Shown here piece by piece: positions 7,721-56,330 of a stretch of DNA of 64,000 nucleotides. Every line of letters begins with the position of its first letter. The first letter of the stretch is position 1. The notes beneath the pieces are model-generated. The model searched no databases, was not told where the DNA came from, and worked only from the letters and a program-made list of their open reading frames with translations. The DNA is from Phlegmacium glaucopus (taxonomy: Eukaryota > Basidiomycota > Agaricomycetes > Agaricales > Cortinariaceae): positions 62,001-126,000 of the forward strand of contig MU130492.1 in assembly GCA_015039465.1 (NCBI GenBank), given 5' to 3'. A program made the position numbers and the translations under genes.

Positions 7721-9738
7721 GTAGGTCTTCCGAGTGCTGGATGCGAGACCATGCCATAAGTAGAAACTGACTCGTCGAGAGAGGTGAGAGTGCGCTTCAT
7801 ACCAATAAGCTGGGATTTCGGAGGTGAGGATGCTTTGAGCAGCCAGGGGGCTTGTTGGAAAAGTTTGCTGTACTGGAAACGAGAAGCTGCATCAGCGAGC
7901 ATGTTCATTTTAGATGGGATCCAAATACAAGAAAAAGAAAATTCAAGACAAGCAGCCATCATGGAGATCAAGCGCACGACTGGCATTGAATGTGAAGAGC
8001 GGCAGGTACCCGAATTCAGCCATGCTACCACATCCTGGTTATCGCAGTAAATCTTGATGTGATGTCTGCTCCAAAGGTCACCCCAGCGGAGGATAGCCTG
8101 AAGAATAGCATAGATTTCTTTGAACTGAATGTCACAGGTACGGAAGCGACGGGGAGCCCGAGAAGAGTACCAAAGGGAATCAAAAATTCCCCCAAGTCCT
8201 TTCCGGCCACTGGCATCAGTATACAACTTCAAAGATGGTTTCGATTTATTTAGCAGACGAACACCGTTCCAGGGGCCACAGAAATGCAGCCACCAACTGA
8301 TATCATAATGGGCACTCAATGGAACGTGGAGCCGGGAGAAAGGTGACTTGAATTTCATGGAGAAATTGATGACGCGGCGCAGGAAAGAGCGGGACCGGGG
8401 GATAACTTGAGATGCAAATTGTAGGAAGCCTACAAGCTCCTGTACCTCTCGAAGAACTGCTGTCCATTTGTGAGACCAATCAGAAAGGAGGACCTTGAGA
8501 TAAGAAAGTTTGTCAGCAGGAAGGCGAGCTTCCATTGCCACGGAATCCAATTCCAGACCAAGGAACTCAATACATGTTGCAGGCCAAACAGTCTTGGAAT
8601 CCTGAAACTTCAGACCAAGGTTATGACCCAAACCCATCACCCAATGCACTGCAGCTGTACAATAGCCCAAGGTATCAGAGGGTTTAAAAAGTAAAAAGAA
8701 ATCGTCGAGATAGTGATGAAGATGGGCAGGTATATGTCGCTGTATTATCCAATGCAGCGCTTCTGCAAACAGGTTAAAAATGTAGGGTGCAGAACGCAAC
8801 CCAAAAGTTAAAACTAGGCAAAAATAGAACTTTCTATCCCAGAAAAGCCCCATGCGATGCCAGTCAGCTGCCCGAATAGGGATGTGACGAAATGCATCCT
8901 TAAGATCCAGTTTTGCCATCAAGGAACCAGGCCCTGAGGCGATCAAATCATCAACGGCACACTCAAACATGTCATATGAAATGACAGCTTCGGAATCCGC
9001 AATGCCATCATTGACCGAGCAACCCTTCGGCCAAGACAGGTGATTGATCAAGCGTAACTTAGAGGATCGTTTACGAGTAGCTACACCCAACGGGGAGCAG
9101 CGGAGAAATGGAAGGGAGGGCTGTAACAATGGACCCTGAATGTGACCACTTGATAGTAAAGACTCAATGGATGAGTCAATAAATTCATGATGCTCAAAGG
9201 CAGATTTCAGGTTTTTGCAAGGGCGAATGACCTCTGGCCCTTTAAAGCCAATGTTTGCACCAAATTGAATTATATGAAGAAGGGTGGATACAAATTTATT
9301 ATCAGGGTAGTCAGCAAGGTAAAAAGCCCAAGCGTCATGGACAAGAGGGGTGAACACATGGACTGGAGATGGTGATCCCAGGACTGGCAAATTGCAGCGA
9401 GGATCTGTGTTAGGGTGTAAAGGAGGTATGGAAAGGGGGGGGGAAGAGATCAGAATGAGGTAAGGATGGGGAAAAGGGAGGTAAATATTCTGAAGAATTG
9501 ATAGGCTCGGATAGTGGTAGACGGCGTGAGCGAATGGTGGAAGAGCCAGACCCACATTTCGCTCTGCCAAAAACCTAGGTGGATTTAGTGCAAGCGTGTG
9601 CCCCATGATTTGGGTCATCGCATTTTTGGCATTTGTGAATATGGCCTGCTGTGCAAGGTGAGGTCGTACAAGACCCTTTGTTAAAAAAGTAGCATGTCTG
9701 CTGGGAAATTGGGAGCTGCTTCGAAGTGGAAGGAACAA
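7375..9738 (-). CDS. Reverse transcriptase/RNase H (Ngaro-like)
   Basis: 787 aa. The RT palm is at about residues 250-390, with DLKDAFRHIPI, FGLRSAPYIFN and the catalytic YLDD box (HHYLDDFFLLF). RNase H follows at about residues 500-620, with the carboxylates in YTDASG, FKEIYAIL, YCDNQDV and LADAASRF. There is no protease or DDE integrase, typical of DIRS-order elements, where integration is done by the downstream recombinase. The last ~115 codons overlap the recombinase ORF in a different frame and look like low-complexity shadow sequence. The methyltransferase-like domain of DIRS1 was not found. Confidence 0.9.
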   Translation of the reverse strand: MFLPLRSSSQFPSRHATFLTKGLVRPHLAQQAIFTNAKNAMTQIMGHTLALNPPRFLAERNVGLALPPFAHAVYHYPSLSILQNIYLPFPHPYLILISSPPLSIPPLHPNTDPRCNLPVLGSPSPVHVFTPLVHDAWAFYLADYPDNKFVSTLLHIIQFGANIGFKGPEVIRPCKNLKSAFEHHEFIDSSIESLLSSGHIQGPLLQPSLPFLRCSPLGVATRKRSSKLRLINHLSWPKGCSVNDGIADSEAVISYDMFECAVDDLIASGPGSLMAKLDLKDAFRHIPIRAADWHRMGLFWDRKFYFCLVLTFGLRSAPYIFNLFAEALHWIIQRHIPAHLHHYLDDFFLLFKPSDTLGYCTAAVHWVMGLGHNLGLKFQDSKTVWPATCIEFLGLELDSVAMEARLPADKLSYLKVLLSDWSHKWTAVLREVQELVGFLQFASQVIPRSRSFLRRVINFSMKFKSPFSRLHVPLSAHYDISWWLHFCGPWNGVRLLNKSKPSLKLYTDASGRKGLGGIFDSLWYSSRAPRRFRTCDIQFKEIYAILQAILRWGDLWSRHHIKIYCDNQDVVAWLNSGTCRSSHSMPVVRLISMMAACLEFSFSCIWIPSKMNMLADAASRFQYSKLFQQAPWLLKASSPPKSQLIGMKRTLTSLDESVSTYGMVSHPALGRPTCLVSAPISTSYESAHPSSLSQASSCQLPLKEYSNGLLSLATMESCQKQLNPTSPVFVPCMLMQASRLKHVSPPLSSGSFEVSNISMGNGNGTQKCPSPSPFSRSLQLSQVTLPL

Positions 9739-10627
9739 CTGGACGGCTGTTGTTTTTCCCAGAGCTGGAGGGGAAAGATGAGGAGCGGATCTGATGGTAC
9801 AGATGAGTGTTCATCAACTGATTATCAGAATGCGCCCAACCCGTATAGATGCCCTTCATCATCTCGTGGCAACGGAGAAGGAAGAATGCTTTATGATATT
9901 GAAGTACCGCATGCCAATTGTAGGCGCGGTTAAGCGTTGACAAATGTTGAACATAGCGGCAAGCTCCTTGGGCAATGGCATAGGTTGCATCAACATTTCC
10001 AGAGGTAGCCGCATAAGCGGAAAGTATATCAAAATATACCATCAGGGGCTTGAGGAGGGAAGAAAACTGGGGGTAATCACGAAGAGACCCGGAGCGTGCC
10101 TTTGCTGTGAGGGAGCCGTTATCCAAATCCAGTGTTGTCTTTAAGTCTGCATTCCTGTCATGTAACGTAGGATCGAGTTTGAAAAGATCGAGGGGTTTGA
10201 ACGAGTGCCTCGTGATCTCCAGGACAGCACTTGTCTCGACAAGGGGAAATAAGTCATATAGGGACTCACCAGCAGGGATTATTGATGCGGAGGAATGAAA
10301 AGGAGGGGGAGTGATGAGGGACTGAGCAGGGAAGGTGAAAGGGATGGTCCCATTTGTCGGAGCGGCTGGGGACCCCAAGCGCTGAAGTAGTAACGTGAAG
10401 ACGTCCATAGTCAAGGTTACTGACTTGGACTGAGCTCCAAGTTCCAGTAGATTGGCAAGAGGGATAGAAGAAGGTTCAGGCCTGGGAGCCTGGGAGGTAC
10501 TGGGGTCAGACATATCCGAAATCTCGGGAATGGATGAAAAATTGGGCTTGGAAAAAAGAGAGGGTGAGAGTGGCGCAGGGAATGCCTGGAAGTTCTCAAC
10601 GGAAATAGGAGCGGGAGCGGTTGCCAC
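9575..10627 (-). CDS. Gag-like protein of Ngaro-like element
   Basis: 350 aa, first ORF of the element. The N-terminal ~150 residues are Pro/Ser-rich and low in complexity. The middle is helical (YFDILSAYAATSGNVDATYA). The C-terminus has a cysteine/histidine-rich nucleic-acid-binding region (CYFFNKGSC...CTAGHIHKCQKCDDPNHGAHAC), combining a CCCH-like and a zinc-knuckle-like motif. It should package the element RNA. It overlaps the next ORF by ~160 nt in another frame, so RT/RNase H is presumably made by frameshifting or reinitiation. The start is the first ATG of the open frame, ~85 nt inside repeat A1. Recognition rests on position and the Cys/His motif, not on a family match. Confidence 0.75.
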   Translation of the reverse strand: MATAPAPISVENFQAFPAPLSPSLFSKPNFSSIPEISDMSDPSTSQAPRPEPSSIPLANLLELGAQSKSVTLTMDVFTLLLQRLGSPAAPTNGTIPFTFPAQSLITPPPFHSSASIIPAGESLYDLFPLVETSAVLEITRHSFKPLDLFKLDPTLHDRNADLKTTLDLDNGSLTAKARSGSLRDYPQFSSLLKPLMVYFDILSAYAATSGNVDATYAIAQGACRYVQHLSTLNRAYNWHAVLQYHKAFFLLRCHEMMKGIYTGWAHSDNQLMNTHLYHQIRSSSFPSSSGKNNSRPVVPSTSKQLPISQQTCYFFNKGSCTTSPCTAGHIHKCQKCDDPNHGAHACTKST

Positions 10628-25879: not shown

Positions 25880-26160
25880 ATTTATAGAGAAGGAAAGCGA
25901 AAAGATCGGGAGGGGGGTGATGGTGGTACGAACAAGTACGAAGATTTTATCCTATCACTTTTTCCTCGTACCACGAGTTGTACGACCCTGGGCCATTTTA
26001 TTATTGGAGTACAAAATTGAAAATGTTGAGTCTCGAGATGGTAAACTATCTCATTCAAGTAAAAATAAGAAGCTGGTCCGTTAACCAAATAAGACCAAAT
26101 TCAGGCCTTGTATGTATTGTCCTTGCCTTCAACACTACGAAACTCGTTTCTTACGCGCCA
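25880..26160 (+). promoter_or_regulatory. Recurrent upstream module of kinase 1
   Basis: Contains GTGATGGTGGTACGAA, CACTTTTTCCT, a TACCACGAGTTGTA block, GGAGTACAAAATTGAAAATG and ACCAAATTCAGGCC. Versions recur before kinase 2 (28640-28710 and 37021-37130, split by a transposon), around the gypsy element (42797-42900 and 51001-51190), and at the window end (63845-64000). It may carry the kinase promoter. No experimental evidence. Confidence 0.45.
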
Positions 26161-28411
26161 ATGCTGAACAATCTCGCGGAATCTAATATATACTCTAGTA
26201 GAAATGCGATCAAGGCCGATCTGGAAAATGAAATCGTCTACAATGACGCGACCGTGTTCAAGCGTCTGCGCGTTGATCAAGTTGACGATACTTTCGTCTC
26301 AATGTGCGCAGCATCCTTCAAAGCTAAGAATACGGAGGATATCAGTATTTTAAAGGAATTGGTAGAACAAGCTTCACAGAAGACGCTTGATCACTTGGAA
26401 GCCGAAGAGATCTGGGATAAGGCCAACGATAAAAACAAGGAGAAGAGTGGTAATCGTGGATCAGTAGAAGAGAAAAAAATGTATGCACCCTTGGTATGCA
26501 ATATTCTTCGCCAATTTTCCCTCCTATACTCAGTCTTCTTTATTTCAGGTGCGGTTGTTCAGCTATATAGCCAACTTCGGTCAAACTGCCACACCCCGTG
26601 AATTCCGGAAGACAAACAGCATGCTCAAAGCGGACGAGCCTCACACATTTGGCTTCCCCAGCTGCAGTCCCGACATCACAGTTTCCCCGCATGGAGTAGA
26701 GGCATTCAAGTCCAAATTATGGTGCCATAGAGATGCTTTCGGTGAAGTAAAGCCCACAAAGAACCAAGGACCGTACTCTGGGATGTCAGACACAATACCC
26801 GTAATCGTAACTCAATCTGCTGACTACGCGCGCCTCTTCATGTCCGCTCGACCTTTCATGCTCTTCTGTGTAGGCATCTTGATCTTTGGAACAGAATTCT
26901 GTGTTGCAATTTTTGATCGCGGTGGAGTCACACTTTCCCCCGCCTACGATATGTTCGAACATACGGAGACCTTTATTCGCGTTGTGCGGAGCATTGCGTG
27001 CAACCTATCGATCGTGGAATTAGGCTTCGATCCTACAGTTCGCGTTTTGACTGATGAGGAGACTCAGAGACTCACTGGGAACTCGAAGTACCCATCTGCC
27101 GTGATTTCGTCCTGTGGCAGTGACCCTCGTGAATGGTGCACTATTGGGCCTCCAATGTGGACATCTTTATCTTTATTGGGTCGTGGCACTAATGTCCGGC
27201 GTGTTCGTGCGTATGCTTTGAGTGTCAATCAGAATCCAATCTTGCATGGGGACGAGATGATCATGAAGACGGCATGGCGCAGCAGTGCCAGAACTTCGGA
27301 GTCCGATATCTACTCAGTAATCGGTAATCGTCCTGAAGGACTAGCGAAGTTCATATGCGGTGGTGATGTTAGGTATGCTAGAAATCCCATCACTGTGAAG
27401 AATATGCGTAGTCAAGCCGTCCATGATTTGGATGCCGATCCTCCAACGGCCGTTCTCCATCGTCTCATTCTTGGTACAGTCGGCCGTCCCTTATGGGAGT
27501 ACACGTCAGAGAGTGATCTGCTAAGTGGATTCCGTGATGCCATCCAAGGTAAACTGCTTCTTAAAATCAGTTTAATCATTTCTCATTATCTTACAGCACA
27601 CAAGTCGCTATGTGATCAAGGTATCCTCCATCGCGACATCAGTGCTGGTAACTTGATGCTAATCGAGGCTCAAGATACTGAACTCCGAGGCTTCATTACT
27701 GACTTGGATTTTGCTCGTATTGAACGCTCCACTGTCGAAACGGCAGAAAGGACTGTAGAAGGCCCCGCTATCCCACAAAAGAAATATGCCGACCAAAGGG
27801 GGTCTTATACAACAACAGAGTTCGCAATTAGCAAGCACACCACCTTTCAATCTACAGTGACGATTAAGAGAGGCGCAGGTATAACGGTATGCGACCTTTA
27901 GGCAGAAACATTTTTTCTCTGGTTGAAAATGTCTTCATAGGGAACAGCTCAATTCATGAGCCGGCGCATCTTGTTGCAGGCCTTTACTAATGCTACCATA
28001 CGTGTCGTGCACGAAGCAAGCGATGACATCGAATCGTTTATTTGGGTACTCTCGTACTCCGTCATGCGCAATATTTACCGCCGGGCTTCCAACCATTCAG
28101 CGTCGAAAGAAGTCAAGGACGAGTGCAAAAGCTTACGAGACACGTTTAATCTAGCCTTCGGTCAAACCACTCCCAAAGCCATCGCTGCTCAAAGGCATAG
28201 TCTGTCTGATTGCCTGATTTTTTCAACATATTCTGATCTCAGAAACATACTCACAAGCTTCATGAGCGACGCTCTTAAATCTCTTTTCGGAGATCTCGCG
28301 GACCTTATGCACTGCGTTAATTCCAGATCCAACCCAATCCCTTTGACCCACGACGCTCTTCTTACAGTGGTTAACAAAACCATCGATAGTTTGCCTAAGA
28401 AAATTAAATAG
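26161..28411 (+). CDS. FunK1-type protein kinase, copy 1
   Basis: Four exons (26161-26493, 26549-27548, 27597-27886, 27941-28411) with GT-AG introns of 55, 48 and 54 nt, all in phase, giving 697 aa. N-lobe: candidate ATP-binding Lys in DEMIMKTAWR. Catalytic loop ILHRDISAGN. Metal-binding Asp in FITDLDFARI. C-lobe HEASDDIESFIWVLSY is diagnostic for the fungal FunK1 family of Ser/Thr-kinase-like proteins. Substrate unknown. The start used is the first ATG of the conserved block (MLNNLAES); the upstream ATG used by copy 2 has been lost here. Introns 1 and 2 have no stop in frame, hence deceptively long ORFs. Confidence 0.85.
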
Positions 28412-36798: not shown

Positions 36799-37130
36799 CC
36801 TGAGGACATCGCGAACCAGGTCAAAGGCATATTCGATATTGAGGTCAGCCAGATATCAACTTAGAACCTCAAGTGTGTATCATCACAACGTCACACAGAT
36901 ACCAACAGCTAAAATCTCACATGAACATCAATTTCGTATCTAGTCGATATTTCTACGTTTCCTCTCAGAAACATCATCTGCAAGAGGTCATAAGGAACTC
37001 AAGCAGGGTTGGTGGTGTAGGTAATTCATGTGTTCCAGTCACATGTGCCAGTGGTTCTTTAACCAAACAGGACCAAATTCAGGCCTTTGTATTTAACTAT
37101 TTACACTCCCTTGGTGCCTTCAACGCTACA

Positions 37131-39397
37131 ATGGCCGAAAGTCCTCGCTTCATGCGCACCAATATGCTGAATAATCTCGCAGAATCTAATGTATATTCCA
37201 GTAGAAATGCGATCAAGGACGATCTGGAAAATAAAATCGCTTACAATGACGCGACCGTGTTCAAACGTCTGCGCGTTGATCAAGTTGACGATAATTTCGT
37301 CTCAACCTGCGCAGCATCCATCCAAGCTAATTATACGGAGGATATCAGTATTTTAAAGGAATTGGTAAAACAAGCTTCACAGAAGACACACGATGACTTG
37401 GAGGCCGAAGAGGTCTGGGATAAGGCCAACGATAAAAACAAGGAGCAGAGTGGTAATCATGGATCAGTAGAAGAGAAAAAAATGTATGCACCCTTGGTGC
37501 GCAATATTCTCCCCAATTTTTGTTTCCTCTGCTCAGTCTTCTTCATTTCAGGTACGGTTGTTCAGTTATATAGCCAACTTCGGTCACGCAGCCACACCCC
37601 GTGAATTCCAGAAGACAAACAGCATACTCAAAGCGGATGTGCCTCACACATTTGGCTTCCCCAGCTGCAGTCCCGATATCACGGTTTCCCCGCATGGAGT
37701 AGAGGCATCCAAGTCCAAATTATGGCGCCATAGAGATGCTTTCGGTGAAGTAAAGCCCACAAAGAACCAAGGACCGTACTCTGGGATGTCAGACACAATA
37801 CCTGCAATCGTGACTCAATCTGCTGACTACGCGCGCCTTTTCATGTCTGCTCGACCTTTCATGCTCTTCTGTGTAGGGATCTTGATCTTTGGAACAGAAT
37901 TCTGTGTTGCAATTTTTGATCGCGGTGGAGTCACACTTTCCCCCGCCTACGATATGTTCGAAGATATGGAGACCTTTATTCGCGTTGTGCGGAGCATTGC
38001 GTGCAACCTATCGATCGTGGAATTAGGCTTTGATCCTACAGTTTGCGTTTTGACTGATAAGGCGACCCAGAGACTCACTGGGAACTCGAAGTACCCATCT
38101 GCCGTGATTTCGTCCTGTGGCAGTGACCCTCGTGAATGGTGCACTATTGGCCCTCCAATATGGACATCTTTATCCTTATTGGGTCGTGGTACCAACGTCT
38201 GGCGTGTTCATGCATATGCTTTGAGTGTCAATCAGGATCCGATCTTGCATGGGGACGAGATGATCATGAAGACAGCATGGCGCAGCAGTGCCAGAACTTC
38301 GGAGTCCGATATCTACTCAGTGGTCGAAAATCATCCTAAAGGACTAGCGAAGTTCATATGCGGCGGTGATGTTAGGTATGCTAGAAATCCCATCACTGTG
38401 AAGAATATGCGTAGTCAAGCCGTCCATGATTTGGATGTTGATCCTCCAAATGCGGTTCTCCATCGTCTCATCCTTGGTACCGTCGGCCGTCCCCTATGGG
38501 AGTACACGTCAGAGAGCGATCTATTAAGTGGTTTCCGTGATGCCATCCTTGGTAAACTGCTTCTTAAAATCAGCTTAATCATTACTCATTATCTTATAGC
38601 ACACAAGTCACTATGTGATCAAGGCATCCTCCATCGCGACATCAGTGCTGGTAACGTGATGCTAATCGAGGCTCAAAATACTGAACTCCGAGGCTTCATC
38701 ACTGACTTGGAGTTTGCTCGTATCGAAGGCTCCACTCTGAGAGAAAGGACTGTAGAAGGCCCCGCTATCCCACAAAAGAAATATGCCGACCAAGGGGGGT
38801 CTTATACAACGACAGAGTCCGCAATTCGCACGCACACCACCTTTCAATCAACAGTGACGATTAAGAAGGGTGCAGGTATGACGGTATGCAATCTTTACGC
38901 AGAAAGCTTCTTTCTCTGGTTGGAAATATTTTTCATAGGGAACAGCTCAATTCATGAGCTGGCGCATCTTGTCGCAGTCCTTTTTTCGTGCCCCCATACG
39001 TGTCGTGCACGAAGCAAGCGATGACATCGAATCGTTTATTTGGGTACTCTCGTACTCCGTCATGCGCAATCTTTACCGTCAGGCTTCCGACCACTCAGCG
39101 TCGAAAGAAGTCAAGGACGAGCGTGAAAGCTTACGAGACACATTTAATCTAGCCTTCGGTCAAACCACTCCCAAGGCCATCGCTGCTCAAAGGCAAAGTA
39201 AGTCTGATTGCCTGAATTTTCCAGGATATTTTGATGTCGAAAACATAATCACGAGCTTCATGAGCGATGCTCTTAAATCTCTTTTCGGAGATCTCAAGAA
39301 GCTTGTACACCTCATCGATTCCAGACCTTTGACCCACGATGCTCTTCTTACAGTGGTTAACAAAGCCATCGATAGTTTGCCAAAGAAAATTCAATAG
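37131..39397 (+). CDS. FunK1-type protein kinase, copy 2
   Basis: Four exons (37131-37496, 37552-38551, 38600-38883, 38939-39397) in phase, 702 aa. A close paralogue of the gene at 26161, with the same landmarks: DEMIMKTAWR, ILHRDISAGN, ITDLEFARI (LDF changed to LEF, Asp kept), HEASDDIESFIWVLSY. It starts MAESPRFMRTNMLNNLAES, ten or so residues before the copy 1 start. The intron 1 donor is GTGCGC, weaker than GTATGC in copy 1. Its upstream module is split by the 8.2-kb transposon ending at 37020, ~110 bp from the start codon, which may alter its expression. Confidence 0.85.
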
Positions 39398-43351: not shown

Positions 43352-43957
43352 TTAATGATCGTCCTCGATTTTATTGTTCTTGAAGTATTCGGCTAATTCT
43401 TGTTTCTGTTGTTCTTCTTCTTGTTGGTCGAGTCGTGAATTGATCTTGATTTTATGTTCGGAGAGGGTAAGAATTTGTGCCATCTTGAGTGCTTGTGCGG
43501 CAGTTTTGATGTCTTTCCACGTCCGAGTGTTGGCTTGATGACTTCCATAACGGGGGTTATAGATAACCCAGAGAAGAGAAGTGAATTGTTTAGCAGTGAT
43601 CCCAGGAAGTTCAATGGCATCGAATACGTTGGTTCCTCGAATTTTAGACTGAGCAACGGTTTGTCCGTCGGCTATGTCGACGTTGGCGAATGCCAGTCGT
43701 TCTGCGAGCCATATGGATTCTCGGTCAAAGAAATATCGGTGGACTTTGAAGCGAATATGTTCTGTTTGGAAGAAAAAGTGACCGCCTGCAATATGGAGTA
43801 TTGGGGGAAGTTGTCCAGGTTGAAAGATAGGGATTCCATTGTCGGGCGTGATATCTTCAACGTAGTCATGAAATTGGTCGATGTCATCGTTCATAGCAGT
43901 AGCAGTATTGAAGTTCATATTGGCAGAAGTGATGCGAGCAGCAGATGCGAGGGCCAT
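43352..43957 (-). CDS. BTB/POZ-domain ORF inside gypsy element
   Basis: 201 aa from MALASAARITS (an open frame continues upstream to 44383 but overlaps ORF3). It matches the BTB/POZ fold common in basidiomycete genomes: FKVHRYFFDRESIWL (the beta-alpha 'VHR.FF.R.S' signature), then IELPGITAKQFTSLLWVIYN, PRYGSH, and WKDIKTAAQALKMAQILTL. The C-terminus is a Gln/Glu-rich basic helix. BTB domains mediate dimerisation and ubiquitin-ligase or chromatin contacts. The stop lies 16 nt from the 3' LTR, next to the polypurine tract, so the ORF is within the element. Probably a captured host gene. Its start and any splice from ORF3 are uncertain. Confidence 0.8.
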   Translation of the reverse strand: MALASAARITSANMNFNTATAMNDDIDQFHDYVEDITPDNGIPIFQPGQLPPILHIAGGHFFFQTEHIRFKVHRYFFDRESIWLAERLAFANVDIADGQTVAQSKIRGTNVFDAIELPGITAKQFTSLLWVIYNPRYGSHQANTRTWKDIKTAAQALKMAQILTLSEHKIKINSRLDQQEEEQQKQELAEYFKNNKIEDDH

Positions 43958-44075
43958 AGTGTAGAAGAGGCGATAAGGGAATGGGAGGGACAGGTCGCAA
44001 GTTCTTATAAGGAGAAATAGAGTCAGAGATAGGGGGGAGTCATAGATATGAGGAGGGATATTCTTAGCGTATGAC

Positions 44076-45209
44076 TCAATGTTCTCCGGTAAGGTTACCG
44101 TCTTCATCTCCGTCAACATCGTAGAATCCGGTTCCGTAGATATCGGGGTCGGAATCTTCTTCTTTCTTGACTTTAGATTTGCATTGACAAGTATTGCCGT
44201 CCGTTTGTCCTCGACACCAAGCAACATGATCATAGAAGAGGGGGAGTCGACAGTGGGAGCAGTGTTCTGGTTCTTGTCGTCTTTGCTTGGGGAGAGGGGC
44301 TCGGTCTTCTTCGCGATTCTTAGGGCAAGTACTGGGCCAGTGTCCAGGAGCGACCCGTTTACAGACAGAGCATTTGTAAGCACCGCATTCTTGTTTGCGA
44401 TGTCCGATGGTGCTGCATTGAAAACATTTGGGTCGACTCGTAGGTGCTCGTGCCGTATATGGAATTGATCGGATCAAAGGGATGTTAGCTTCGGATGGTT
44501 GTCTCGTAAGTGGCTGGGGGCGGATACGAGTTCCGGTTTCTTCGGAAGGGTTGTTAAGAGGAATATTGTTAGGGAATGTAGCGGGAGAGTTAGGGGGGAC
44601 GGGGATCCAAATGTTGACAGTGGGGGTTGTCAGAGTCAAGGTTTGTTCGATCTGTTTACTAAGTCCGTTAATTTGGAGGCGAGGAACAAGTTGTCGAATA
44701 TTATGTTCTTGGGTTGCATTTGTTTGTCGTAATTCTTGTGCCATCTTGATCAGGCCTTCGGCCATCTTTTCTAGGGTATTGGCTTGAGGGAGTACCAGTC
44801 GATGGTGGCAGTAAGCGATGTCGAATGTTTTGAAATCGGAGTCGTGGGTCCAATCTCGAAGATGATCTCGTACATAGGTTCGGTAGTGGGAATATGTGGG
44901 GAACTGAGAGTCGAATATTTGAGTGATATCTTGGATTTTAAATTGTTGGTTAGTGGTAGTGGAACTTGTGGGGGAAGATGGGGGAAGTGGGAATTGCGTA
45001 GCAAGGAATGTGGTGTGGACATTGAGGGGTTCGTTCTCAAGGATGGTGGCAAGGGATGCGGTAGTGCTAAGGGTGGAGGTGGTTGAAGGGGTTGTTGACG
45101 AGGGAGCCATTGAGGGGGCAGTTAGAGGGGGAATGTTTTCTTTGTTGTCATTACTGTAGTCGATGTCGAGTTTTATAGGCTTGGAGGAGTTCTTGTGCAT
45201 TGGTGACAT
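44076..45209 (-). CDS. Extra ORF3, zinc-knuckle protein in gypsy
   Basis: 377 aa in another frame from pol, starting inside the chromodomain-coding DNA. The N-terminus is Ser/Thr/Pro-rich. The middle is helical (YVRDHLRDWTHDSDFKTFDI; TLEKMAEGLIKMAQELRQ). A Cys/His cluster has a canonical knuckle CFQCSTIGHRKQEC, a second CSVCKRVAPGHWPSTC and a third CSHCRLPLFYDHVAWC. The tail is acidic (EEDSDPDIYGTGFYDVDGDE). This gag-like nucleic-acid-binding ORF occupies the env position but has no signal peptide or membrane span. Standard gypsy elements lack it. Role unknown. Confidence 0.75.
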   Translation of the reverse strand: MSPMHKNSSKPIKLDIDYSNDNKENIPPLTAPSMAPSSTTPSTTSTLSTTASLATILENEPLNVHTTFLATQFPLPPSSPTSSTTTNQQFKIQDITQIFDSQFPTYSHYRTYVRDHLRDWTHDSDFKTFDIAYCHHRLVLPQANTLEKMAEGLIKMAQELRQTNATQEHNIRQLVPRLQINGLSKQIEQTLTLTTPTVNIWIPVPPNSPATFPNNIPLNNPSEETGTRIRPQPLTRQPSEANIPLIRSIPYTARAPTSRPKCFQCSTIGHRKQECGAYKCSVCKRVAPGHWPSTCPKNREEDRAPLPKQRRQEPEHCSHCRLPLFYDHVAWCRGQTDGNTCQCKSKVKKEEDSDPDIYGTGFYDVDGDEDGNLTGEH

Positions 45210-45252
45210 TTCGTTCGGGTTCCCAAGTGTTTTCTGCAGTTGAATATCCTTT

Positions 45253-48200
45253 CTATTTTATAAGGAAGGCGTATCCTCTTCCCTGTCGTCTGTGGGAAAT
45301 TATTGACTCGACTTCGTACTCTGGTTGGCCTTCGATAAGGTCAGGAGGTGGTTGTGGGAAGTTATTGCCATATACTCCATTTGTCTTGTAAGGGGAAAGT
45401 AGCGTGATATGAATGACTGGGTGAATTCTCCAGGAGTGAGGTAATTCCAGGCGGTAGCTGAGGGGACTTAGAACTTCTATGACTTTGAAGGGGCCTTCTC
45501 GCTTAGGTGCCATTTTCTTGGTTTCGTATCGTAGTTTAAGGCATCGTGACTCGAGCCACACCTTATCTCCTATTTTGAATGGGGTGAAACCTCGGGTAAT
45601 ACGTTCGGTCATGACTTGTCGTGCGAGTTCATGGGCCGCGTTGGCTTCTTTCCGTGCTTCTTGGAGATTGATAAGGTGTTCTTGGGTATCAGGGATGTTG
45701 GTTCTAGGGAATGCGGTGGGGATAGCGGTTGGGTTATAACCCATTTGAAGGAATAGAGGAGATTCTTTTTGTGTAGCATGTGGTTTGGTGTTGTAAGAGA
45801 ATTCGAGGGTAGGGAGGTATTGTCGCCATTGGTCAGGGTTATTTGCGCAGAAGATGGATAGATAAGCTTCAATTTCTTGGTTTGCTCTTTCAGTGGCTCC
45901 GTCTGTCTGTGGATGATGGGCTGTGCTCATGACTAGGTTGATGCCAAGAAGTCGTCCTAATTCCCGAAAGACGTGAGAAGCGAATTGGGGGCCACGGTCG
46001 GAGATAGCTTTGTCCGGTAACCCGTATCTTTTGTAGAGTGAGTCAAGTAAAATAGAGGCGGTTCCGTTGGCATCAATCGTTTTGTGGCATGGAGTTAGGA
46101 TTACCCCCTTCGTAGACCCGTGGTCGACCACGACCATGATAGAGTCGAAGCCGTCGGAGGAAGGGAGATCCGTGATGAAATCCATAGTGATCAGAGAGAA
46201 TGGGCGAAGTTGTTCGGAACGAATGGGGTGTAAAGGCGGGGAAATAGGGTGTCGGTTTATTTTGTGTTGCTGGCAGATGGCGCAGCCATCAACGTAGTTC
46301 TGAATGAATGTAGCCATTCCAGGCCACCAGTAATCGCGTTGGACTAGATTCTGGGTAACGAGGCGTCCGGGGTGTCCAGCAGGGATAGAGTCGTGATGTT
46401 TGTGAACAATATTGCGGCGTAAGTCCATGTTGTCGGGTACATAACAGCGATCTTTATAGAAGACTAGGTCACCGTCCGTTCGCCAGTCGCTAAGGGCAGA
46501 GCGCATAGGGAGGGGTCCGCCATGGAGGATCGCGTGGAGGGCGGTTTTGACGACATCGTCCATTTGTTTTGTAGAAATTATGAGGTTTTGGAGTTCCATG
46601 TCAATGGCATTAACAAAGAGGTTGTCGGGGAGTAGTGTGCGGTCTTTATTGTCATTTTCCATTCCAACAGTAAGGTCGGCACGTCGTGAGAGGGCATCTG
46701 ATTGAACCATTTGAGTGCCAGGGACGTGTGTGAGGTGGATGTCGAATTTGGAAAGGAAGAGGCTCCATCGTGCTTGTCGTCGGTTGAGTTTTTGAGCAGT
46801 TTTGAAGTAGGTTAAATTCTTGTGGTCAGAGCGTACAGTGACTGGGTATGGGTTCCCCATCAAATAGTGTCGCCATTCCTTAAGGGCTCGAATAATTGCT
46901 AGAAGTTCTCGGTCGTAGATTTCGTAGTTTCGTTCCGTGTTATTGAATGACTTGGATAGATATCCACAGGGATGCCAGTCTCCGTTATTATCTTGTTGTT
47001 GTAATACTGCTCCTGAAGCGTATTTAGAAGCGTCTGTTTCGAGTTTGAAGGGTTTTGTTGCATCAGGCATTCGTAGGACTGGGGATTCAGTGAATTTCCT
47101 TTTCAGTGTTTCAAAAGCTTGGCTTTGTTCGGGTGTCCATTCGAATTTGGTGTCTTTCTTGAGTAGGTCGTTAAGTGGTTTTGTCATATTGCCATATCCT
47201 TGAATAAATCGTCGGTAGTAGTTGCCAAAGCCTAGGAATGAGCGGATTTTGTGTACTGAGGTAGGTGCAGGCCAGTCAGCGATTCCAGCGAGTTTTACAG
47301 GGTCCATAGCAAGTTTGTTTTCTTTGATGACTAGCCCTAGGAATTCCACTTTGGTTTGCCAGAAGGCACATTTCTCAGGTTTAAGGTAAAGGTCATTATC
47401 GGCAAGGCGTTGGAGGATTCGTCTAGTGTTTTCCATGTTCTCGGCAATTGTTTTGGTGAATATGAAGATATCATCCATGTAGATAACAACCCATCCTTCG
47501 GTGGTTTCGATTATGAATATGTCGTCCATCATTGCTTGAAATGTGGCGGGAGAGTTACAAAGTCCGAAGAACATGACTGTGGGTTCGAATAGTCCCTTGT
47601 TGGTTTTGAAAGCTGCTTTCCATTGGTCTCCGTCTCGAATGCGTACATTGTTATAACCCCATCGGATGTCCAATTTGGTGAAGTATTTGGCGCCCTTGAG
47701 TTTGTCGATGAGTTCGGAGATGAGGGGGAGTGGATAGGTATTCTTGACTGTTCCTTCATTTAGTGTTCGGTAGTCCTGTGTGGGGCGTACTTTTCCGTCT
47801 TTTTTGTCGACAAAGAAGAATGGTGATGCCATGGGGGACTTGGATGGTCGTATGTAGCCTTTTTCAAGGTTTTCCTTGAGGAATTTGTCCAGTTCAGCTT
47901 GTTCCAGTAGTGTGAGTGGGTAGACCTTGCAGTCGCGAGGTATAAAGTCGTCTTTAAGATCGATGGCATGATCGTAAGGTCTTGCTCCAGGGAATCGTTC
48001 TGCGGTTTCCTTGTCGAAAATGCGCCAATAATCCATAAGTTCCGATGGTATCATTTCTTCTAGGGTTTTCTCGCCTTTCTTTGCATTTTGTTCACTTGCT
48101 AAGGTAGTAGAGACATTGGTTTTGTTGACCCAGAGTTCGTTGTCCATGACGTGGTTGATAAAAGCAGCGACCAGTTCAGTTTCGCTGTCGTCGAGGTTGA

Positions 48201-48456
48201 GTTCGATGGTTTCGTTTTCGTCGTCCAATTTTAGGAGTGTTGAATTGAGGGGTGATTCCTCGTCTTCGACTTCTTCTATTGTGGCTTTCGGAAGAGTTGG
48301 AGTTTCGGGGATTGGGGTAACTTGTTCTCTTTTTCTCCAATTGGGGGAATCGCTTCTTTGCAGTTTGGTCTTTTTCTTTCTCTTCTCTTTCCATTTCTCT
48401 ATTGTCTCTTTCATTTCTTTTTCTACTTGGTTGTACCGTGTTTCATCGATTTCCAT
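45253..48456 (-). CDS. pol: Pol: RT, RNase H, integrase, chromodomain start
   Basis: 1067 aa. RT at about 180-380 (GYNNVRIRDGDQWKAAF, FFGLCNSPATFQ, VVIYMDDIFIF). RNase H at about 465-585 (LETDASKYASGAVL, YDRELLAI, SDHKNLTYF). Integrase zinc domain (H-H-C-C, DYWWPGMATFIQNYVDGCAICQQ). Catalytic DDE: ITMDFITDLP, AISDRGPQFA and GATERANQEI. The C-terminus enters a chromodomain (YEVESIISHRR...AFLIK) and hits TAG exactly where the family has Trp (KWKGY); reading on gives KGYSTAENTWEPERNV to a stop at 45151. So the chromodomain is one nonsense codon away from complete. Confidence 0.93.
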   Translation of the reverse strand: MEIDETRYNQVEKEMKETIEKWKEKRKKKTKLQRSDSPNWRKREQVTPIPETPTLPKATIEEVEDEESPLNSTLLKLDDENETIELNLDDSETELVAAFINHVMDNELWVNKTNVSTTLASEQNAKKGEKTLEEMIPSELMDYWRIFDKETAERFPGARPYDHAIDLKDDFIPRDCKVYPLTLLEQAELDKFLKENLEKGYIRPSKSPMASPFFFVDKKDGKVRPTQDYRTLNEGTVKNTYPLPLISELIDKLKGAKYFTKLDIRWGYNNVRIRDGDQWKAAFKTNKGLFEPTVMFFGLCNSPATFQAMMDDIFIIETTEGWVVIYMDDIFIFTKTIAENMENTRRILQRLADNDLYLKPEKCAFWQTKVEFLGLVIKENKLAMDPVKLAGIADWPAPTSVHKIRSFLGFGNYYRRFIQGYGNMTKPLNDLLKKDTKFEWTPEQSQAFETLKRKFTESPVLRMPDATKPFKLETDASKYASGAVLQQQDNNGDWHPCGYLSKSFNNTERNYEIYDRELLAIIRALKEWRHYLMGNPYPVTVRSDHKNLTYFKTAQKLNRRQARWSLFLSKFDIHLTHVPGTQMVQSDALSRRADLTVGMENDNKDRTLLPDNLFVNAIDMELQNLIISTKQMDDVVKTALHAILHGGPLPMRSALSDWRTDGDLVFYKDRCYVPDNMDLRRNIVHKHHDSIPAGHPGRLVTQNLVQRDYWWPGMATFIQNYVDGCAICQQHKINRHPISPPLHPIRSEQLRPFSLITMDFITDLPSSDGFDSIMVVVDHGSTKGVILTPCHKTIDANGTASILLDSLYKRYGLPDKAISDRGPQFASHVFRELGRLLGINLVMSTAHHPQTDGATERANQEIEAYLSIFCANNPDQWRQYLPTLEFSYNTKPHATQKESPLFLQMGYNPTAIPTAFPRTNIPDTQEHLINLQEARKEANAAHELARQVMTERITRGFTPFKIGDKVWLESRCLKLRYETKKMAPKREGPFKVIEVLSPLSYRLELPHSWRIHPVIHITLLSPYKTNGVYGNNFPQPPPDLIEGQPEYEVESIISHRRQGRGYAFLIK

Positions 48457-48513
48457 CCTGTTTAAGGTGGTGGTGTGGACGTTTTGCGTTTCCCGTAATC
48501 GTTGTTGATTTCT

Positions 48514-48960
48514 TCAATTGTAAGTCAGGGCCAGTTGGTGTTTTCCCATTGGAAGATGCATTCGTCCAGTTTCCCAGTCTATCTGAGGGTTATGAGCTTG
48601 GAACCAGGGGAGTCCAAATATGACATCGGCGCTTGCAATTGTGACGATATGAAGTCGTTCCATCATCCAGCTGTTGCCTTGTTGATATCTGATCCAGGTA
48701 TAATGCGTGATTTTCCCATTAGAGTTAGGGGATCCGTCTGCGTTTCGGGGGAGTATAGGTTTATTGAGGGGATATAGAAGTACTTGGTGTCGTTTGGCGA
48801 AGCCAGCGTTCATAAAGAGTCCGCCAGCTCCAGTGTCCATAAGAATTCGGGCGTCAACGATTTTGTTCTCTTTCTCAGTTTTGCACGTGATAGGGGTCTG
48901 TAAGATCATAGATTGTTTTCCCATCTCGGCTACTAATACAGAAGAAATCATCAGCGACAC
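48514..48960 (-). CDS. Retroviral-type aspartic protease
   Basis: 148 aa from the first Met, but the frame is open further upstream (to ~49047, SGQGPGFLGKH), so the native product may be longer and made by frameshift. Active site ARILMDTGAGGLFMN (D-T-G). Second half VIFGLPWFQAHNPQIDW is the conserved ILG-type flap region of Ty3/gypsy proteases. A TGA separates it from pol in the same frame, with 19 open codons between the stop and the pol Met. Confidence 0.85.
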   Translation of the reverse strand: MSLMISSVLVAEMGKQSMILQTPITCKTEKENKIVDARILMDTGAGGLFMNAGFAKRHQVLLYPLNKPILPRNADGSPNSNGKITHYTWIRYQQGNSWMMERLHIVTIASADVIFGLPWFQAHNPQIDWETGRMHLPMGKHQLALTYN

Positions 48961-49070
48961 AGACGTTGAAACTGTGTGCTTACCTAAAAATCCTGGTCCT
49001 TGACCACTTCGTCTATCAACTTCTCTTTTTCTTCTACATCCATATCTTCAACTAAATTGCGTATCATGGC

Positions 49071-50198
49071 TCAGGCGGTAGCGGCTGTCTTCTTGAATCC
49101 GTTGAATTTCTTGTAACTACTGTCATTTGGTTTGACATAGTTCGAGCTTGTGTTCGGGGCGTTATTCTGTTTGGAGCGGCATTCTCGGGTGAAGTGTCCT
49201 ATTTTGTGGCAGTGGAAGCACCTTCGTTCTTTCATGTGTTGTTCGCGTTCGTCTATATTGAGGCGATCGATCTCGGTTGTGTCGATATCCATAGCATTGG
49301 GATCATGATGATGATTAACATAGCGTGGCGAAGGGTAAGGCTTTTTTGCTTGGGGGGTGTTGCCAGTTTTTTGCTGAGTTATTTCCTTGCATCGTTTGTA
49401 TTGGAGGTCGAATCGAGAAGCTTTAGCATACCAATCTTTGATAGCTGTGGGCGGGTTCTCAAGTCCATAGATTTTCTGGAGGAGAGAGGTGTGGATTCCT
49501 TCCGAAAAATAGTCGATAAGAGTTTTGTCGTCTTTGATCTTGGATCTTCCAGCGAGGATTCTAAATTGTGTGATGTAATCGTCTACTGAGTTGGTTCCCT
49601 GTCGGAGTTGGCGTAATTGGGCTCTGGCTTCTCCTTCGGCGTCAGCGGCTAGGAATGCTTCTTTGAGTTTCTTGATGAAACCAATATAGGTTCCGAAGTC
49701 TGGGGGAGTGGTGCCAAGACATTCATCGAGGAAGGCTTCTTTCCAGATTTTAGCAGTTCCGCCAGTAAGGAATGAGAGGATAAAGATGATTTGTTTGGCT
49801 TCCGAGTTATAGATTGAGTCATTGAGAGAGAGGTATACTCGACAATCCTGAAGAAAGGATAGGAGTCCGTCTCGATCTCCGTGATATGGCTGCGGGGGGT
49901 TGATGCGTACTTCTTTAGACATGTTGTCGTCGTCTTCGTGGTCACTAGTTATATCCCAGTCGGGTTTCGGTTGTTGAGCAAGGGTTTCGGGTGGTCCAAA
50001 GGAGGTGAGTGGTAGTGGAACGGGGTTTTGGAATGGGGAGGGAGCAACGGGTGGTGTGTATGTTAGGGTTTTGGTTTTTCCTGAGGTAGAAGGCTGGGGG
50101 ACTGATGTTGTTTGAGGAGCTGGTTGGTCTGTTGCGGTTGTTCGAGGGGTTCTTCCTACTCTTTCTTGTCTTTGCTGTGTTGTAGAGCTGTGGCTCAT
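49071..50198 (-). CDS. gag: Gag, Ty3/gypsy
   Basis: 375 aa. The N-terminal third is Pro/Ser/Thr-rich. A retrotransposon gag core lies at about residues 100-270 (YLSLNDSIYNSEAKQIIFIL ... AKIWKEAF ... LRQLRQGTNSVDDYITQFRI). A CCHC zinc knuckle is near the C-terminus (CFHCHKIGHFTREC). The first ATG of the frame is used; an acidic open stretch lies upstream without another ATG. A TGA ends it, and the same frame reopens at once with ATG for 27 codons up to TTTTTAG, where a -1 shift would enter the protease frame. Confidence 0.9.
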   Translation of the reverse strand: MSHSSTTQQRQERVGRTPRTTATDQPAPQTTSVPQPSTSGKTKTLTYTPPVAPSPFQNPVPLPLTSFGPPETLAQQPKPDWDITSDHEDDDNMSKEVRINPPQPYHGDRDGLLSFLQDCRVYLSLNDSIYNSEAKQIIFILSFLTGGTAKIWKEAFLDECLGTTPPDFGTYIGFIKKLKEAFLAADAEGEARAQLRQLRQGTNSVDDYITQFRILAGRSKIKDDKTLIDYFSEGIHTSLLQKIYGLENPPTAIKDWYAKASRFDLQYKRCKEITQQKTGNTPQAKKPYPSPRYVNHHHDPNAMDIDTTEIDRLNIDEREQHMKERRCFHCHKIGHFTRECRSKQNNAPNTSSNYVKPNDSSYKKFNGFKKTAATA

Positions 50199-50552
50199 GC
50201 GTTCAGGCTCGGGAAGTTTTTCTTTGAGAGGTTCTTCGTTGTCGGTGTCGTATTGACTACTTCCAGTTGTATCTTCTTCTTCTTCTGATGACTCGATAGG
50301 GGCTTGGTATTTGCCCTTTGACGTCGTGGTGTATTATCTCTTGGGATCCGTTGGTATCGGCGACCACACGATCTTCTTATGACTCCGTTGATTTAGGCAA
50401 TCACACGAGTTCGGTATGACTTCGTTGGTAGAGGCGACCACACGAGTTCGAGGTTGTTGACTTAGATTAGACTGCGGTTTTGTTGACAGTGTGTGTTCAA
50501 ATGAGCTACAGAGGTAAGGTTCGTCTGCGCTTAGAGAAGCGGACGCAAGAGT

Positions 50553-50564
50553 AGTTTAGACCTT
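50553..50564 (-). promoter_or_regulatory. Self-priming primer-binding site
   Basis: One nucleotide inside the 5' LTR, the minus strand reads AAGGTCTAAACT. This is the exact reverse complement of AGTTTAGACCTT at the predicted 5' end of the RNA (plus 50723-50734). There is no TGG to pair with a tRNA CCA end. The Tf1/sushi group primes reverse transcription with its own folded RNA 5' end, and this fits. Confidence 0.75.
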
Positions 50565-50565
50565 T

Positions 50566-51000
50566 TGTTACGGCGACTATAAGCTTGCACTCGCGTTCGG
50601 TGCTGGGCCAATAGACCAAGTAACTAGGGACTGTTGTACAGTTGCAATCATATTCAACAAGGTGAGACTGAGGGCGACAGGTTCTGAGCAAGCGGTATAG
50701 ATTAAGACCGTAGGGAATACAGAAGGTCTAAACTAGGGATTGTAGCTATGGGTATGGCTCTTATATACTAGAGAGTCGAGTCAGAGATAAGGAGGTGGTC
50801 CGTGCTGGGAATACGAGTCGGTACAAGTCAGGGATAAGGAGAGCGGGAGCGATAGCTAAGTATAGTACATAGAAGGTTCAGGGCAAAGGGTAGAAAGGGA
50901 AAGGGGTGGTACAAGAAGGAGCGATGAGGGAAAGAGTAATGTACAGTGGAGAAAGGGGAAAATGGATAGGGGGCTATGCGCGTACCAGCCGTTCATAACA
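50566..51000 (-). repeat. 5' LTR with promoter
   Basis: 435 bp. On the minus strand a TATATAAG box (plus 50760-50767) lies ~33 nt before the predicted RNA start at ~50734 (AGTTTAGACC). That start is inferred because the first 12 transcript nucleotides would be complementary to the primer site just beyond the LTR. Confidence 0.85.
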
Positions 51001-51889: not shown

Positions 51890-52119
51890 CTAGTAGTGGG
51901 GGTCGGCAATCTCAGGCAGTGTGACGTACCGTAACATCACGGAGTGACATCACGGTCACCCTCAAATAAGTGACCCACGGAAATTGTGCTTTCCACAATG
52001 GCTTGCAGCCCAGCCTGGGTGGTTTTATTACATCATAAGTATCAAAACAATTTAATTTGAGGTTTTAAATGTTTGTAGGAGGTATAGATGTTGCTGAGTG
52101 ACAGTAATCCCTGCCAAAA

Positions 52120-53441
52120 GTGCTAAATTAAAAATGGAACGTGTAAAAACGAAATCTAACATATGGAGACTGAATCTCGGAAAGTTACGTGAAACACTAC
52201 TAAAGTCGAAAAGTGTTCATATACGTTCGAGAAAACGTATCACAAGACTTAACGAACTCTCGAGAAAGACGTTTACAAGTAACAGACTGAAATCTTGTAG
52301 ATGTATAACTCGTAGTTCTCGTCTTACGAAAACCTCGAGGAACCGGAGGAAGTAATAAAATACGAATATAAGGTGGTTGAGTCGTTGACAAAGGAATTCT
52401 TGTCGAAACGGAAATGATCGTGTCTTACGTTGATTCTCGTGCTGTAAGTAAAACGTTGACCGCTATTTCTAGAAACATTGTTAGAAAAAGTTGAAGTTCA
52501 CGTCTAGAATTGACGAGTTATATAAAAACTCGTAAGAGGTCTTCGAGACTCTTAAATCTTGTGACGAGTACTCTGAAAAAATCGAGTTGAAGTTCTCTTC
52601 ATTAAACTCGGAGGTATAGACGTTCAACGACGACTATAACTTAATGACATGAGAGTTTCAAACGTCTTCGTCTTCGACTTCGACTTCGACGTCCTAGAAA
52701 ATCTTCCAATCGTAGAGAACGGAAAACCTCTAAAAGTTCCAATCGACAAGCCCGAACTCGAGGAAAACCCCCGTACTGACCAGTTTTCCATTTTTACACT
52801 CCTTTAAACCACTTAACATTGACATCTAACTTCAAAACTTGTCAATCTCGAAATTATATGAACTCTTTGTATTCCTTTAATTTTGAATGTACAAAAATCT
52901 ATAGTTTTTGACGTTATGGTCCTATAGTCAGGTTAGTCTAGTTCTAGTCTAGTTCTAGTCTCGATTTCGAACTTCCGATTCATATTAAATCTCCATCTTA
53001 TCCGAACAAATGGTTGTGATATACTGATTTACTTGTTATAAACTATCGATCCTGTCTACTCTCTTGTTATACCACCTCCATCTTCACTTTCCTTCAGTCT
53101 AACCACCTACTCTCGACGAATGTTTCGTCGAGAGTCCGACTTAAACCGTCGTGTTTGTCTTTAACAGATATCTGTGATAGTCCTTGAGTTATACCACGAA
53201 GTCAGGTTATTGTTTCATAGTAAAAAAGTAGTTAGACCTGTTATAGAGAACTAGTTTTATAAAAAGGAATAAAAAATTTGGAAGGAAAATACCTTTAATG
53301 TGACGATAGAAGTGATTTTAAATAATACATTTTTTTCATTAGTTCTCCTTAATTTCAAGGTATACATTCTTTGTAAAATAGAGTGGTCTGGAACAACAAA
53401 TTTACCGAAGGACGTCTCAGATATTTCGAAGTTAAAATCGA
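52120..53441. other. Block reversed without complementing
   Basis: Read from right to left with bases unchanged, 52775 down to 52416 is an ATG-initiated frame (MPPKGAQARTANLENLQ ... QQQLADMEAQITSLEV) and 52428 down to 52132 a second coiled-coil frame (KEAKELQKHSALDAQY ... VYNLKQKCAR), one base out of phase with the first. Read normally or as reverse complement it has no sensible ORF. CG dinucleotides are frequent and GC almost absent, the opposite of the neighbouring transposase exon. The left boundary is between about 52095 and 52130. Confidence 0.85.
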
Positions 53442-53689
53442 NNNNNNNNNNNNNNNNNNNNNNNNNNNNNNNNNNNNNNNNNNNNNNNNNNNNNNNNNNN
53501 NNNNNNNNNNNNNNNNNNNNNNNNNNNNNNNNNNNNNNNNNNNNNNNNNNNNNNNNNNNNNNNNNNNNNNNNNNNNNNNNNNNNNNNNNNNNNNNNNNNN
53601 NNNNNNNNNNNNNNNNNNNNNNNNNNNNNNNNNNNNNNNNNNNNNNNNNNNNNNNNNNNNNNNNNNNNNNNNNNNNNNNNNNNNNNNNN
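53442..53689. other. Assembly gap (248 N)
   Basis: A run of N directly between the reversed block and the rest of the transposase ORF. It probably conceals the middle part of the transposase N-terminal region. Confidence 0.99.
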
Positions 53690-55805
53690 GTTTATAAAGT
53701 ATGTCATAGCTGTTACATTTGGCTCAGAGGGAACAGGCCATAAAAACCTAAATTACAACTCTCGCTATGCTCACTATAAGGTTAGGGATGCTGATGGTGA
53801 ACAAGCACAGGTCACACACTTTCTAGGGCTTCAGAGATCCTTAGATGGAAGCAGTGAGCAAGCTATGAGGGACTGGGATGATCAATTGCAGAAAATATTT
53901 GATATTTACAGTGATAGTCCACTTTCCAAAGAACAAAGTAGCTTCACACGTCTTATCAATGTCTATTCAAAGCTTGCAGGAATGCATGCAGATCACTGTG
54001 CTAAAGAAAAAAAAGATTATGACTTGATGGGGAAGAAGAAAACAGAAGCAGTTCACCAGGTACTTGGTAAAAGGAGGATTATTAATAATACAAATAAAGA
54101 GCTTATGCCTTTTTTTCTTTCTGCACATAAAGAAATGGTGGAAAAAGCTGGTGGAGAGGCTGATTGGAACAACCTTGATGAATCTGCACAAAAAGAGCAC
54201 AAAGCAGCAATGTTGGAAAAGCTTACAACAGATCTTGGTCAAGATGCATTTGAAAAACTATCTGATAAGGAGAAAGCTATTTTCAAGCTATTTGTCTGGG
54301 TTGGATGTGGGTGTCATAAGGATCTAAATACTGTACTTGGAGGTTATATTGCTCTGAGAAAATTTTGGGTTGAGCATAGGCTGGAGCCACCTATCTTACT
54401 TCCAAAAAAATTCAATGAAGCCATAATTCAGGAGGCTGCTAAAGAAGACAAAAATAATTCTGAGGCTGCCCAACGAGCTGTTAAAAATTCCTCACAAGGT
54501 GGTATTAAAGCAACAAAACTTGCAGGTGATACACTTGCAGACAACAAAAATCAACAAATCTGGACATCTCAGGAACCAGAATTCCGTACCTGGTGGGAAA
54601 CAAAAGTAGGCAAAAAATTCACCTTTCCTGATACATCCAATACACATTTTCAATCCCATTGTGAGGCTGCAGCAGCATTAACACTCCACCATGATAAATT
54701 TGTTGAATATCTTAAATATGCAAAAGACAAAAAGGAGTGTGCATGTTATAGCCATATGGAGGAAAATTTGTGGAAAGCCCTTCATGATATTCCAACTAGA
54801 ACAGAACTTGCTGTTTTGGCTCTTTATTCTCAAGCAGTTAGCCATCCCTATATGAGAGCAATACAAAAAGATGCAAGTTTAAATGCTCTAAACCTTGGAC
54901 CCTTGCATAAAAAGATTGAATCATTTTTGGTGCGAATTATAGAAGATCCTACATTTCTGGTTGATGAACATGTTTCACATACAGTTGGGACCTTTGATGG
55001 CACACCTTGGCATTCACAGGAGGTTATTGATAAAATCAATAAGCTTGCACCTGATTTTCCACATCTTAAGCCAGCTTTAGTTGCATTCTGTACTGGAGCA
55101 CTGGTGACCTGGAAGCGTTTCACATCTGAATTTGCACCTGGTGGCTTAATTGATGAGGCTACACAGGAAGAAAGAGATTTAGCATGGATGCCTTCAACTA
55201 ATGATATTAATGAAGGAGCACTGGGATCATTCCGTGTTCTGATGCGGCGTCAACCTCAACTTACTCTTCTACAATACAATGCACAGACAATGTTCTTCCA
55301 GAACAATACTGGGGCATTTATGAATGAAATGTTCTCAGATACAACTCATCAATATATCCGAGCAGTTTCAAGAGAGAGAGATACTTCCAAGAAGGAGCGT
55401 CTTGAAGAAATTGCTCAGCATACTGAGGAAAAAATTGCCAAGAAGGTAGCTGCTAAAACAAAGCGTACAGAACGTGCAGTTCAAGTTGCAGATCGTATTT
55501 CCAAAGTTGCACTAATTTTCAAGGAGGATGAGATTGACAAGCTGAAAGGAGAAAAACTGAAGGATCATTTTCAGGCTTTCAAGAAAGCAGGTGCTCCAAA
55601 TCTTGGCACAATTAACAGCAAGTCAAAAGTTGCAGAGAAGAGAGAAGCTATCAAAGCAGCAATCAGATCATATAACAAGGGAGAATGGAAATTGTCACCA
55701 AAATATGTAGATCCTGGAATACAGAATGAAGATGAAGGAGAGGTATTTGATGGATATGATGATTTTCACTCCTCAGATGAGAATAGTGGCTGGGAGGATG
55801 AATAG
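53690..55805 (+). CDS. Transposase-like protein, 5' end missing in gap
   Basis: Open from the gap edge (YVIAVTFGSEGTGHKNLNYN) to the stop, 704 codons; the first internal Met is at 53865. Landmarks are MHADHCAKEKK, VWVGCGCHKDLNTVLGGYI, FPDTSNTHFQSHCEAAAAL, HDIPTRTELAVLALYSQA and WMPSTNDINEGALGSFRVL. The tail is Lys-rich then acidic (SSDENSGWEDE). In relatives I know, the first motif has Asp (GDGTxHKN), where this copy has Glu (GSEGTGHKN). A DDE-type role for that position, the Asp in HADH and the Glu in NEGAL is inference. The N-terminal coiled coil is in the reversed block to the left. Confidence 0.65.
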
Positions 55806-56330
55806 TAATTTAGTAATGCTAGTTAGATGAAGATTTCTACTTGTTCTCATTTTTGAACCATATTTTAGGTACTATTTCTACCTCTGAGCATCTGAAAATG
55901 TTGTACAGCTTATAACTATACCATATCATGCTTTATACAGTGAAAAAATCTTGTGAAACAGTGCAGAACTCATTGAAAACATGTTGTACCAGGTTTTGTG
56001 ACCGGTTGTGTGACGTGACGTGACAAAACATTGCCACGGCTATATGTGACATTGCCGACCCCCACTAGTAGCTGGCTATGGCTCCAGCGCGGATCGCCGA
56101 GTCAGGATTATCAGTCCAGTTCAGTTTCGAAACTTATGAGCAGACAATGGAACATTGAACCTCGAACGCGACTTTGAGGACATCCGGTTCATATTTTTTC
56201 CCAACTTTGAACTGAACATTGCGTCCGGTTCCCAAAATGTTCAGTTATACATTGGATCCGAAAGGTGTGTGGTGGATAAGCCCTTAGACAGGAAATTAGT
56301 CGAAACCAAGCAAGGTCTTTTGAAATAGAT

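Follow-up and report, generated by a model that had tools for sequence, protein, structure and literature searches.

The window analysed here, the whole stretch of 64,000 nucleotides at positions 62,001 to 126,000 of Phlegmacium glaucopus contig MU130492.1 (C167, 279,363 bases; assembly GCA_015039465.1, 60.5 Mb in 259 contigs), carries a terminal-inverted-repeat DNA transposon at 51897-56064 (Table 1), which is characterized by 14-bp terminal repeats (TGGGGGTCGGCAAT), 7-bp target-site duplications and strong CpG depletion. The sequence of the duplication differs among copies and was CTAGTAG in the window, ATAACAG on C92 and ATCGCAG in L010. Other elements were recognized in the window by eye: frames resembling a gypsy-type retrotransposon (43352-50198, minus strand) and frames resembling a tyrosine-recombinase retroelement (6743-10627, minus strand). 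At 25978-27901 and 36873-39024, a gene with one and the same pair of frames is present in two closely similar copies, apparently a local duplication.

Table 1. Features of the transposon copy and its interrupted segment (positions in the window)
Feature	Position	Strand	Comment
Left target-site duplication CTAGTAG	51890..51896	.	Flanks the terminal repeat
5' end of the transposon in normal order, including the 14-bp terminal inverted repeat TGGGGGTCGGCAAT	51897..52134	+	Probable contig end that the fill extended
Block read as string-reversed and uncomplemented	52135..53441	.	When mirrored, the upstream side of the transposon and the N-terminal coiled-coil coding part, with mirrored ATG at 52775
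Remainder of the gap, 248 N	53442..53689	.	318-359 bases in six of seven measurable normal copies, 221 in the seventh
3' part of the same transposon in normal order, including the right terminal inverted repeat	53690..56064	+	Contains open frame 53691-55805
Right target-site duplication CTAGTAG	56065..56071	.	Identical to the left duplication

The open frame to the right of the gap encodes 704 amino acids and represents the C-terminal part of a transposase, the relatives of which have proteins of approximately 990 amino acids. A Pfam search with this frame and three relatives found no family above its cut-off. An alignment of 34 relatives showed invariant residues in the contexts SADGT, GCGCHKDLN and NEGALG, and we would guess that these could form a DDE-type triad. 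The element is similar to an uncharacterised fungal DNA transposon (P0015 and its relatives) with the same length of terminal repeats and duplications, the 5' part of which corresponds to the mirrored block; while many normal copies of it are present in the genome, the copy in the window differs only in that the order of its letters is wrong.

The stretch between the normal 5' end of the transposon and the gap had been described in the initial annotation as written backwards without being complemented, and comparison with the genome bore this out. The reversed string of the 1307-base block yielded 46 normal matches, the best of which was 97% identical over 1306 bases, whereas the block as written matched only itself and four further places (on C92, C105 and C216), every one of which is itself mirrored. 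Alignment to normal copies confirmed the right limit of the span originally given (52120..53441) but moved its left limit to 52135, as 52120-52134 proved to be normal flank. Two control queries were also string-reversed. A piece of an abundant retrotransposon gave only two matches, both of them reversed blocks; for a 1240-base stretch of the window, no match was obtained in the genome, but as a control this stretch is weak. Judged from these alignments, the block appears to be a plain string reversal of a real piece of the local transposon copy, and the true sequence would be the identical letters read from right to left at the same position.

Composition agreed with this reading. The block as written contains 67 CG and 3 GC dinucleotides and, when reversed, 3 CG and 67 GC, as compared to 4 CG and 65 GC in the normal copy L010 and 14 CG and 104 GC in the coding sequence to the right of the gap, so that the excess of CG and the near absence of GC first noticed here are indeed the opposite of the neighbouring exon. 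The CG:GC ratio of the block, computed after adding one to each count, was 17.0 versus a maximum of 1.46 among 599 other 1307-base windows. A k-mer likelihood scan likewise gave the block 71.6 bits in favour of mirrored order, with 30.7 bits for the next stretch in the window (49904-50878). As a sole detector this compositional scan was rejected, given that a low-complexity stretch of L031, which is taken as normal, scored 45.7 bits; as the scan is imperfect alone, homology was used instead.

Read from right to left, the block has the predicted ATG at 52775 and the 119-codon frame that follows it. The second frame had been reported to lie one base out of phase, which is literally correct, but the slip is not a one-base error; an alignment with seven normal copies showed it to be a 7-base insertion. 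This insertion and 17 substitutions are the only differences between the fill and the majority of the seven copies. A raw long-read error was considered as the source of the frame slip and rejected, as the slip is an insertion of 7 bases and the fill is clean elsewhere; with so few errors, the fill does not point to raw long reads.

Across the left junction, the flank followed by the flipped block was identical to the normal copies L007, L010, L009 and L015 at 117, 119, 118 and 120 of 120 positions, respectively. Over the first 60 bases past the junction, the reversal agreed with L007 at 57 positions, as compared to 15 for the sequence as written, 18 for its complement and 1 for its reverse complement. 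In the seven normal copies where the interval corresponding to the N gap could be measured, it comprised 318-359 bases in L006, L008, L010, L011, L013 and L020, and 221 in L016. The 14-bp terminal repeats start at 51897 and end at 56064 with a perfect 7-bp CTAGTAG duplication outside both, and identical duplications together with terminal repeats on both sides were also found for the copy on C92. Since the repeats and identical duplications lie on either side, a single insertion spans the block and the gap, and the scaffold join is sound at both the window and C92; only the inserted letters are backwards. Hence, of the earlier diagnosis of a sequence-handling or scaffolding error next to the gap, sequence handling stands and scaffolding does not.

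At the protein level, the mirrored translation of the block matched the transposase P0003, encoded by another copy in the same genome, at 41 of 41 residues, and P0015, a 993-amino-acid relative from another source, with 34% identity over 102 residues. The proposal that the block holds the N-terminal coiled coil missing from the transposase right of the gap was thus upheld. In a tblastn comparison, six transposases, of which P0003 and P0037 are from this genome and the rest from elsewhere, were aligned with 31 loci, both as written and mirrored; mirrored matches fell in the blocks and as-written matches in the flanks, save for overlaps of about 30 bases at the edges. For the equivalent block on C200, residues 915-981 of P0068, a protein from another source, were matched as written (82% identity) and residues 525-915 were matched by the mirrored sequence (92% identity over 391 residues). 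In all 10 blocks examined, chosen by the analyst from a total of 26, the longest stop-free stretch of a mirror frame exceeded that of every real frame. For one reversed fill, on C10, the longest frame as written (136 amino acids) was compared with 5.8 billion proteins, and for this single frame no relative was found at E 0.001.

The error had initially been placed at this gap. It is present here but not confined to here; 26 reversed blocks, representing at least three repeat families, were found on 24 contigs across the genome. Further mirrored blocks of the same transposon family are located on C92, C105 (on both sides of one gap), C216, C198 and C107, and blocks in diverged paralogues, 67-77% identical to the reversed query, on C200, C10, C191, C224, C189, C45, C8, C106 and C171:612k. 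The C92 block also contains a nested 397-bp repeat from a different family (L038:2318-2714), which was mirrored together with its host. The reversed string of this repeat had 274 candidates in the genome, and all 40 that were scored were matches with 79-93% identity. As written, it was found in nine places: its own and eight further ones (C125, C62, C188, C87, C241, C219, C171:1058k and C144), and because these eight match the repeat as written, they are mirrored too. For the unrelated gypsy-type element of the window, queried with 46001-47800, 44 normal matches were obtained with 40 of 169 candidates scored, and two mirrored ones, on C131 and C132. The 7400-9400 element had five genome matches, itself included, and is too rare to test for reversed copies. 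Two of the 26 blocks, C144 (42 bases) and C171:1058k (89 bases at 80%), were identified from short matches. The mirrored letters amount to about 17 kb or more, as summed over 17 of the 26 blocks.

By matched bases, the mirrored share of the transposon family was 11% for the 5' segment and 13% for the 3' segment, both of which are upper estimates as the normal counts are lower bounds. For the 3' segment, normal copies were taken from 40 scored candidates out of 71, which makes this share an upper estimate, and 8 of 57 normal and 9 of 14 mirrored matches, all below 84% identity, were left out of it.

An N gap lies within approximately 250 bases of 21 of the 26 blocks. The five blocks that do not adjoin one (C92, C224, C171:612k, C144 and C132, with an N gap about 0.7 kb away on C171) may represent closed fills. 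At the far end of the closed fill on C92, a run of A (L038:3232-3257) is found and 139 element bases are written twice; the fill extends beyond the end of the right contig, as would be seen if trimming against that contig had been omitted. Normal gap edges occur as well, on the left in L007, L009, L015 and C216 and on the right in the window (53690) and on C131, and these could be unfilled edges or correctly written fills.

In all six of the 26 blocks that have a readable join, flipping the block in place restored colinearity with the flank it touches within a few bases. One of the six is the window block, with its join at 52134. In the others, after the flip, copy position 3998 was followed by 3997 at the left join and 1434 by approximately 1428 at the right join on C105, 2906 by 2904 on C92, and 2190 by 2189 on C107, and in the unrelated retrotransposon on C131, 887 was followed by 888. 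On C200, the flip agrees at the protein level too, at residue 915 of P0068. The flipped join on C216 skips 109 bases, and the normal copy L022 lacks 105 of them at nearly the same place. Such a rule is expected of a filler whose extension of contig ends into gaps is correct but whose added letters are then output in the wrong order.

Taken together, the reversed block is very probably a gap-fill extension that was inserted with a faulty orientation step, and as such would be an assembly error and not biology; the flipped order is considered correct on the strength of homology. A gap-filling program would have extended the contig end into the gap with real local transposon sequence, and the extension would then have been inserted with its letters reversed but uncomplemented. 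Two slips could produce this outcome, as a plus-strand fill may have been reversed without being complemented, or a minus-strand fill complemented without being reversed; both give identical letters and are indistinguishable. The fault occurs at left flanks, at right flanks, at both sides of one gap and, apparently, in fully closed gaps.

That the block adjoins an N gap could also suggest a scaffolding error, in which an unrelated or wrongly oriented contig was put beside the gap. A contig put in the wrong place would still read forward or as its reverse complement, though, and not string-reversed, and with the same 7-bp duplication at both ends of the element and a flipped block that fits the left flank base for base, we consider this explanation very improbable. 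Flipped contigs are a known class of assembly error in which a segment is reverse-complemented; the blocks reported here resemble them in that a segment is wrongly oriented in the assembly, but differ in being uncomplemented, so that real DNA is found on neither of the strands and the block is missed by ordinary searches of both. Mirror-order DNA made in the cell, by a true inversion or an unknown copying process, has in its favour that several repeat families contain mirrored copies, a recurrence that a mobile unit might show. An inversion would give the reverse complement, which continues the element at only 1 of 60 bases, and a biological origin fits poorly with the N gaps that adjoin 21 of the 26 blocks and with a nested repeat of another family that was reversed along with its host. 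We know of no polymerase or DNA process that builds mirror-order DNA, and regard this possibility as even less probable than a scaffolding error. Finally, the block could be ordinary, fast-evolving or low-complexity DNA that resembles a mirrored gene by chance, and the L031 stretch shows that compositional scans can mislead in this manner; however, chance does not account for a reversed block that is 97% identical to normal copies over 1306 bases or for as-written matches that include no normal copy, and this is the least credible explanation of all.

With faulty gap filling as the favoured explanation, the program responsible would likely be PBJelly, which is used by JGI for hybrid ALLPATHS-LG assemblies. 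Proteins closely related to the transposase of the window belong to the BYT27DRAFT records of Phlegmacium glaucopus, also named Cortinarius glaucopus, which are records of JGI; AT 2004 276 is a strain listed for the species. In the methods of a genome project whose text names C. glaucopus (PMC7550596), hybrid assemblies are said to have been built with ALLPATHS-LG and then patched by PBJelly, for which PacBio reads were used; the general methods line covers all genomes of the project, and PBJelly is stated for the hybrids. According to the PBJelly paper (PMC3504050), reads must align within 25 bp of a gap edge, and where a gap is not closable the flank extension is kept and the gap shortened. 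Both descriptions agree with the observed pattern. An orientation fault that is real but was introduced by another tool, such as an in-house patching step, has somewhat less than an even chance; the good quality of the fill and a methods passage that is only general for all project genomes (PMC7550596) speak for it, whereas one- and two-sided flank extensions with a smaller residual gap are what the PBJelly paper describes (PMC3504050). Misfilled or overfilled gaps are documented for fillers such as PBJelly (PMC3504050, PMC6733440) and are similar to the present case in that new sequence appears inside gaps at one contig end or at both, and an N run persists if the gap is unclosed. The faults described in the parts of those two papers considered here differ from it in being wrong, surplus or poorly aligned fill, and reversed, uncomplemented fill is not mentioned in these parts. 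Likewise, a search of the listings of one open-access library found no report of fills inserted reversed and uncomplemented.

By homology, the public reference of this ectomycorrhizal fungus would thus carry about 17 kb or more of letters that occur on neither strand in the organism. In the reversed blocks, genes, repeats and k-mers are hidden from ordinary searches and the reference is silently corrupted, but detection is simple: sequence near gaps can be reversed without complementing and searched again. If the fault sits in a shared pipeline, other genomes built likewise need checking. It is a speculative and rather unlikely extension of these results that many published fungal references contain mirror-order DNA, which ordinary searches of either strand do not recognize, through an orientation bug in a long-read patching pipeline in wide use; in the present genome, approximately 11-13% of the bases sampled for one transposon family are already unreadable in this way. 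While the biological interest of the finding is low, it is useful to all users of the P. glaucopus genome.
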